Below, piece by piece: positions 29,659 to 30,933 of a stretch of 64,000 nucleotides of DNA; the stretch's first letter is position 1; every line of letters starts with the position of its first letter. The translations under genes and the position numbers were made by a program. Source of the stretch: Planctomycetota bacterium (GTDB lineage Bacteria; Planctomycetota; Phycisphaerae; Phycisphaerales; Phycisphaeraceae); the NCBI GenBank assembly GCA_021413865.1, contig JAIOPN010000052.1, positions 1 to 64,000 of the forward strand, written 5' to 3'. Under the pieces are notes generated by a model, which was not told where the DNA came from, ran no database searches, and saw only the letters and a list, made by a program, of their open reading frames with translations.

Positions 29659-30787
29659 TTACGAAGATTTGCCCATCGCCGCCTGCTCCCGTGCCCGGCG
29701 CTGGAGTTCGGCGTCGATGAAGCCCTGCAGCCGGCCGTTCATCACGTTCTGGGGATTCGGCTCCTCGTGGCCGGTGCGGTGGTCCTTCACGCGGTTGTCG
29801 TAGAAGACGTAGCTGCGGATCTGCGTCCCCCAGCCCATCTCGATTTTGCCGCCGGTCGCCGCGTTGAGCTTGGCGCTGCGCTTCTCCTCCTCGAGCAGTT
29901 CCAGCTTGCCACGGAGGATCGAGAGCGCGCGCTTGCGGTTCTGCTGCTGGTCGCGGTACACCGAGCAGACGATGGTGATGCCGGTCGGCTTGTGGATGAG
30001 GCGGACCGCGGAAGCGACCTTGTTGACGTTCTGCCCGCCCGGCCCGCTGGCGCGGACGAAGGCGATGTATTCCAGTTCGTTCTCGGGGATTTCGAGCTTG
30101 GTGTCCTCGTCGCCGAAGTCGGGGATAACGTCCACGGTGGCGAAGCTGGTCTGGCGCTTGCCCTGGGAGTTGAAGGGGGAGACGCGCGCCAGGCGGTGCG
30201 TGCCGCGCTCGCACTTGAGGAAGCCGTACGCCGACGTGCCCTTGATGAAGATGGTCACGTCCTTGAGGCCCGCGTCCTCGCCGGGGTTCTTGTCCACCTC
30301 GGAGATGTCCCAGCCGATGGCTTCGCCGTAGAGCAGGTACATGCGGAAGAGCATCTCCGCCCAGTCGCACGCCTCGGTGCCGCCCTCGCCGGCGTAAACG
30401 GAGAGGTAGCAGTTGTAGTGGTCGAACGGCCCGGAGAGCAGCGAGGAAAACTCCAGCCGGTCGAGCGAGGCCGTGAGCCCGTCGATCAGCGCGTCCACCT
30501 CGTCGCGTGAGCCCTGGTCGTCCCCCTCCTCGGCCATCTGCCACAGCAGCACCGCGTCGGCGATGTCGCCCACGGTCTTGGTGACCGGGTCGAGCGTCGC
30601 CTTGAGCAGCTTGACCTCTTCAACGACTTTCTTGGCGCGGTCCTGGTTGTTCCAGAAGCCGTCGGCGCCCATCTGCGCCTCGAGCTCTTTCCGCCGTTCC
30701 AGCTTCTTGTCGTAGTTAAAGAGAGTCGCGGATGGATTGGATCCGCGCCTCGAGGGATTTCAGGATGCCGGGGATGTTGTCACGCAT
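29659..30787 (-). CDS. prfB: Peptide chain release factor 2, programmed +1 frameshift
   Basis: Release factor 2 terminates translation at UGA and UAA. The class I motifs are present: SPF ([12 protein letters not shown]) and GGQ ([11 protein letters not shown]). The gene starts at the ATG 30785-30787 and reads 23 codons to CTT (30719-30721), then meets an in-frame TAA (30716-30718). Skipping one base there gives AAC TAC GAC... and the rest of the protein to 29659, 375 residues in total, the normal RF2 size. The 23-codon leader and the following [17 protein letters not shown] align with the RF2 N-terminus. Low RF2 would favour frameshifting and so raise RF2 production. Confidence 0.93.
30716..30721 (-). 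promoter_or_regulatory. prfB autoregulatory frameshift site (CTT TAA C)
   Basis: On the minus strand the slip site reads CTT TAA C, the equivalent of the well-known CUU UGA C of other prfB genes, but with UAA in place of UGA. I see no purine-rich Shine-Dalgarno-like stimulator in the few bases upstream. RF2 decodes both UGA and UAA, so the feedback can work, although RF1 would also read UAA. Confidence 0.85.
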
Positions 30788-30822
30788 AGTTGGGGCAGTA
30801 TAGCGGGGACGTTACGCACGGT

Positions 30823-30923
30823 GTTAGCCGTCGGCCTCGGCCGACGCTGGCGCCCAGATATCTGGGGTGAAACGCAGGGCCCCTATTGCCGGGAAATAGC
30901 GTCGGCCGAGGCCGACGGCTAAC
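30823..30923. repeat. Long inverted repeat (26-bp arms) upstream of prfB
   Basis: Two perfect 26-bp arms (30823-30848 and 30898-30923) enclose 49 bases. Each arm is itself nearly palindromic (GTCGGCC/GGCCGAC), and the centre contains the palindrome CCCAGATATCTGGG. It lies between the metallophosphoesterase stop (30934) and the prfB start (30787). It could be a dispersed palindromic element or act as a transcription terminator. Confidence 0.85.
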
Positions 30924-30933
30924 CCGCGCCGCC

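Follow-up and report, generated by a model that had tools for sequence, protein, structure and literature searches.

The prfB gene on the minus strand of the window (the whole stretch of DNA analysed here, 64,000 nucleotides) very probably contains an autoregulatory +1 frameshift site in which a hairpin of the mRNA, located behind the ribosomal E site, substitutes for the duplex between a Shine-Dalgarno (SD) sequence and the anti-SD. It also seems likely that a natural 5' hairpin replaces the SD throughout the class Phycisphaerae, and that one order of this class has moved the stop codon of the site to UAA, admitting RF1. Frameshifting in RF2 synthesis is the textbook example of a bacterial +1 shift, and most bacteria need this one-base slip of the ribosome to produce RF2. 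The SD of the RF2 site has been called hyper-conserved, and "nearly all bacteria" have been thought to share one mechanism.

The zero-frame leader ORF of prfB (30719..30787, minus strand) begins with an ATG at 30787 and runs open for 23 sense codons up to the slip codon CTT (30719..30721, minus strand), the P-site codon of the proposed shift from CUU to UUU, which is followed by an in-frame TAA in the A site (30716..30718, minus strand) and then by a C. The +1 frame, read from 30717, begins AAC TAC GAC and stays open for 352 codons to 29659, constituting the RF2 body (352 aa plus stop; 29659..30717, minus strand). Its translation contains both the SPF and the GGQ motifs, and in a profile comparison it matches TIGR00020 with 390-392 bits, above the curated cut-off of 370. 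Leader and body, joined at the shift, give a complete RF2 of 375 aa. Thus, the 23-codon leader ending at CTT TAA C and its +1 continuation to a full-length RF2, as given in the preliminary description, are confirmed, positions 30716-30721 reading exactly CTTTAA. This is the layout of a prfB cassette, in which a short ORF in the zero frame closes with YTT TRA C and the +1 frame encodes RF2, although the stop is UAA and not the RF2-specific UGA. RF2 reads UAA as well as UGA. The same genome contains a prfA-like gene, whose best match lies under the strict cut-off of the corresponding model.

SD pairing was calculated as the duplex energy of positions -16 to -3 (14 nt) with the anti-SD. The predicted duplex has +0.4 kcal/mol in the window, versus -10.2 kcal/mol in E. 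coli, and by this measure, with an intact anti-SD, no internal SD was found at the window site in the position expected for it, about 3 nt 5' of the slip codon. The 16S rRNA tail of the window genome ends in GGATCACCTCC, conserving CCTCC, which rules out an altered anti-SD as the cause. The earlier statement that no SD-like stimulator precedes the site was therefore correct. However, its implication that the site lacks any stimulator was wrong, since a conserved, covarying 5' hairpin, overlooked at that stage, occupies the position of the SD. The absence of SD pairing is shared by the order to which the window genome belongs, with a median of +0.4 kcal/mol over 69 distinct sites; elsewhere in the class the median is -4.0 kcal/mol, and for 22 phylum members from outside the class it is -5.3 kcal/mol. 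In the rest of the phylum, an SD-like AAGGA, AGGA or GGGG mostly precedes the site.

The hairpin consists of a 5' arm CGCGGAT (30741..30747, minus strand), a 7-nt loop whose sequence is not conserved (30734..30740, minus strand) and a 3' arm ATCCGCG (30727..30733, minus strand). The resulting 7-bp stem, CGCGGAT-N7-ATCCGCG, is recovered unprompted by RNAalifold in two alignments and ends 5 nt before CTT, placing a stable stem, supported by covariation, next to the E site. The spacer between stem and slip codon, ACTCT, in which TCT is the E-site codon (30722..30726, minus strand), has a constant length in all aligned sites. RNAalifold can also extend the stem into this spacer by two pairs (G-C and G-U) over a bulged A, which would bring it to 2-3 nt from CTT, the spacing of an SD, although this extension has no covariation support. 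Taken as a single sequence, the 101-nt leader folds no better than its shuffles (z = 0.21), so folding energy was set aside as uninformative and the case for the hairpin is built on conservation and covariation. A search of Rfam with window positions 30600-30870 gave no match to a known family up to E = 1. A TTA codon in the loop was considered as a functional element and ruled out, the loop varying freely across the class.

Two sets of sequences were used for the covariation analysis, the own-order set being collected by protein and the class set mostly by the hairpin model. In the first set (58 sequences), 98.2% of the pair cells are standard pairs, both sides have changed in 12 cells, and none of 500 shuffles reaches as high a covariation score; when the partner is displaced by 1-3 columns, only 19-44% of cells remain paired. 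The second set (91 class sequences), which is biased towards the hairpin because it was mostly gathered with the hairpin model, adds 25 double changes, and in it columns 21-39 appear as CG, GC, AU, UA, GU and UG, and columns 24-36 as GC, AU, CG and GU. Both of these pairs link third-codon positions (Ala-Arg in one case, Arg-Ile or Thr in the other), so that selection on the protein does not explain their covariation. On a tree of 171 sequences, the number of changes per third-codon column is 56-72 upstream of the hairpin, 47-54 in the loop and 13-15 in the stem, and CTTT has not undergone a single substitution. Changes on the same branch number 7 for columns 24-36, versus 1.0 expected (0 of 4000 permutations), and 5 for columns 21-39, versus 0.9 expected (P = 5e-4), these being the first and second of 105 third-codon pairs, respectively. 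When a tree-aware null is applied, columns 21-39 rank above every other pair (E = 0.034), and 24-36 taken alone is not significant (E = 3.7).

The hairpin is lost where the frameshift is lost. Each of the 69 frameshift sites in the own order retains six or seven stem pairs. Ten prfB genes of this order that have no frameshift conserve 2-5 of the 7 pairs, and in every one of them the stem is broken. Two of these genes (L122 and L287) still encode the peptide RIxSIRDSL or RVxSIRDSL in the absence of the hairpin, indicating that the peptide outlived it. It has to be noted that the order contains at least ten prfB genes without the frameshift (L087, L091, L122, L129, L138, L140, L141, L287, L288 and L291), and that it was apparently lost several times independently.

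These data bear on the proposal that the stimulus could come from the nascent leader peptide (ARI..IRDSL) or from the choice of E-site codon, the hairpin being a by-product of codon conservation. The sequence R-I-x-x-I-R-D-S/W-L is indeed well conserved, a leader ending in ..ARI..IRDSL is common to the relatives, and this peptide would be in the exit tunnel while CUU is in the P site. However, the third-codon positions co-vary as base pairs, two genes without frameshift retain the peptide and not the hairpin, and several families have a Trp codon instead of the Ser codon, so that this explanation is considered unlikely, although it survives better than the others.

Covariance searches extend the hairpin beyond the own order. 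A covariance model derived from the 58 sequences of the first set matches 245 of 298 Phycisphaerae genomes, normally once per genome, and 23 of 294 genomes drawn from the phylum, 18 of them in the class and only five outside it. These five matches, too, correspond to prfB sites; they carry CGGGACTCT or a similar sequence, and their stems are partial. Class-wide, the hairpin appears to have taken the place of the SD signal. When the median energies of SD pairing and hairpin are set side by side, they pass from -5.3/-7.6 kcal/mol in the outgroup to -4.0/-12.7 kcal/mol in the class and +0.4/-14.3 kcal/mol in the order, the hairpin strengthening as SD pairing weakens. Beyond the own order, a weak SD, CGGGA (-4 kcal/mol), is found together with the hairpin, and some members of the class families f7 and f12 have AAGGA SDs and 0-3 stem pairs. 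A plausible path would lead from an SD alone, through a weak SD (CGGGA) accompanied by the hairpin, to the hairpin alone (CGCGA) in the own order. In two members of family f16 (L282 and L293), CGGGACTCTCTTTGAC is present and only 2 of 7 stem pairs are kept; perhaps these sites have a weak SD only, or a shifted hairpin.

The spacer itself varies in some families. ACTGG, with TGG or TGT (Trp or Cys) as E-site codon, replaces ACTCT mostly in families f18, f20, f23, f24, f26 and f27 (rows L251, L253-L260, L262, L264-L267, L269-L272, L274, L276 and L277), and these families keep the hairpin.

Taking into account that CUU-U followed by a stop and a C is slippery on its own (PMC5009743), CTTTAAC might shift without any stimulator, its weak termination context being sufficient, and the hairpin could then serve mRNA stability or the insulation of the start. 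The constant distance of 5 nt from the slip site, the joint loss of hairpin and frameshift, and the inverse relation between hairpin and SD strength make this rather improbable. Still less credit can be given to the idea that no RNA hairpin is formed and that the dyad serves a repressor as its DNA operator within the prfB leader. Such an operator would fit a 7-7-7 dyad some 40 nt 3' of the likely start site, but G-T combinations are tolerated and A-C ones hardly, as would be the case for RNA (12 GU/UG versus 2 AC at columns 21-39, and 7 versus 2 at 24-36), and the dyad holds a fixed position relative to the slip site and disappears along with the frameshift. Least probable of all is production of the body without frameshift, by reinitiation or from the in-frame ATG at 30672, 15 codons inside it, given that CTTT is invariant and its stop maintained as TAA or TGA, and that an ORF starting at this ATG would lose the N-terminal Y-D-x-K.. 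conserved in the RF2 of relatives.

The UAA codon was studied in the relatives of the window genome through a protein-level search covering 61 genomes of its family and order, and prfB was found in 59. In 52 of these genes CTT TRA C is present at the same codon, the stop being TAA in 36 and TGA in 16, and the seven others have a single continuous frame. Since TAA occurs in 35 other genomes, a sequencing error is ruled out, and the conservation of the site among relatives likewise rules out a private oddity of the window genome. The preliminary description had called for this comparison of leaders and had named relatives without the TAA, reading in one frame, as an argument against the site. 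Such relatives do exist, but the seven cases are lineage-specific losses, and the great majority retain the site. Outside the own order but inside the class, TAA was found at 3 of 102 distinct sites. On a tree of the RF2 body with 58 rows (52 from the own order and, as outgroup, six with TGA), at least 8 changes are needed to explain the distribution of TAA and TGA, and this state is strongly clustered. Among 36 picked ORFs of the window, the stops are TGA in 27, TAA in five and TAG in four.

The suggestion that a UAA site would be a rarity is not supported, given that TAA has already been reported in 1.4% of 8,164 motif-bearing genomes (Prince, Lin and Feaga 2025, PMC12421855) and that the consensus of an earlier survey was YTT_TRA_C (PMC3711429); TAA as such is therefore not new. 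The CTTTAA sites of the former study share with that of the window the use of TAA as premature stop, but they have been described as scattered and not fixed in clades, whereas here one order carries TAA at 36 of 52 sites, and the RF2 tree implies about 8 changes. To the published account these sites add the persistence of TAA through one order, in which UAA is more usual than UGA. The authors of PMC12421855 argue that in most taxa UAA is read chiefly by RF2, and that sensing of RF2 would persist. From the known specificities of RF1 and RF2, RF1 would also be expected to compete at UAA, as the preliminary description proposed.

With respect to known systems, the site resembles that of E. coli prfB (AGGGGG UAU CUU UGA C) in its short leader, the CUU codon, a stop readable by RF2, the following C and the +1 RF2 body, and RF2 autoregulation is presumed to operate as in the E. 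coli cassette. It differs in lacking an internal SD, in the 7-bp covarying hairpin found instead and in the use of UAA in most of the order; compared with the mRNA:16S rRNA duplex of E. coli, the duplex would presumably be formed within the mRNA. A synthetic 12-bp hairpin placed by the E site gave about 60% of the +1 stimulation of the SD at CUUUGA with E. coli ribosomes (Huang 2018, PMC6321510), an effect seen in vitro only without RF2 and reduced in weaker stems. Because the layout is the same, the natural element is proposed to be an SD mimic. Synthetic 5' hairpins (PMC6321510; Cho 2013, PMC3639245) share with it the placement at the E site, the slip site and the idea of SD mimicry, but they are engineered, with a 12-bp stem, and here 7 bp are naturally conserved in a native gene. 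In barley yellow dwarf virus, a natural stem-loop is also located 5' of the shift site (PMC5009743), although this is a eukaryotic virus, the shift has the -1 direction and it is not autoregulatory. No earlier planctomycete or hairpin-type prfB site was found in the open-access literature searched; if the interpretation is true, this one would be the first natural hairpin found there to act as an SD mimic at a prfB site.

According to the proposed mechanism, a ribosome holding CUU in the P site and UAA or UGA in the A site would terminate slowly at low RF2, and would wait. During this pause, the stem 5' of the slip site could fold again, up against the ribosome on its E-site side, loosening or pulling the P-site tRNA-Leu, which could then re-pair on UUU, establishing the +1 frame and leading to full-length RF2. 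With UAA, RF1 would also shorten the wait. In this picture the shift would take place in the cell, the hairpin would stimulate it, and the level of RF2, and for UAA also of RF1, would set its frequency.

If this is true, a duplex at the back door of the ribosome, and not SD pairing itself, would be the requirement for the shift. The natural variants available (SD only, SD with hairpin, or hairpin only, with UGA or UAA) would be suitable for tests of how stimulators act on P-site and E-site tRNAs. Moreover, annotation tools that require an SD in prfB may overlook sites of the hairpin type.

Two further features lie upstream of the leader. A TATACT -10-like box is located at -15 from the leader ATG (30787-30802, minus strand), and TATACT- or TATAAT-like boxes 11-15 nt 5' of this codon are present in many relatives too; no SD precedes the ATG in the window. 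The proximity of the -10 box and the lack of an SD suggest that the prfB mRNA may be leaderless or nearly so. Farther upstream, between prfB and a neighbouring metallophosphoesterase-like ORF, there is a near-perfect long inverted repeat, GTTAGCCGTCGGCCTCGGCCGACGCT ... AGCGTCGGCCGAGGCCGACGGCTAAC (30824-30925), which looks like a dispersed repeat or a terminator.
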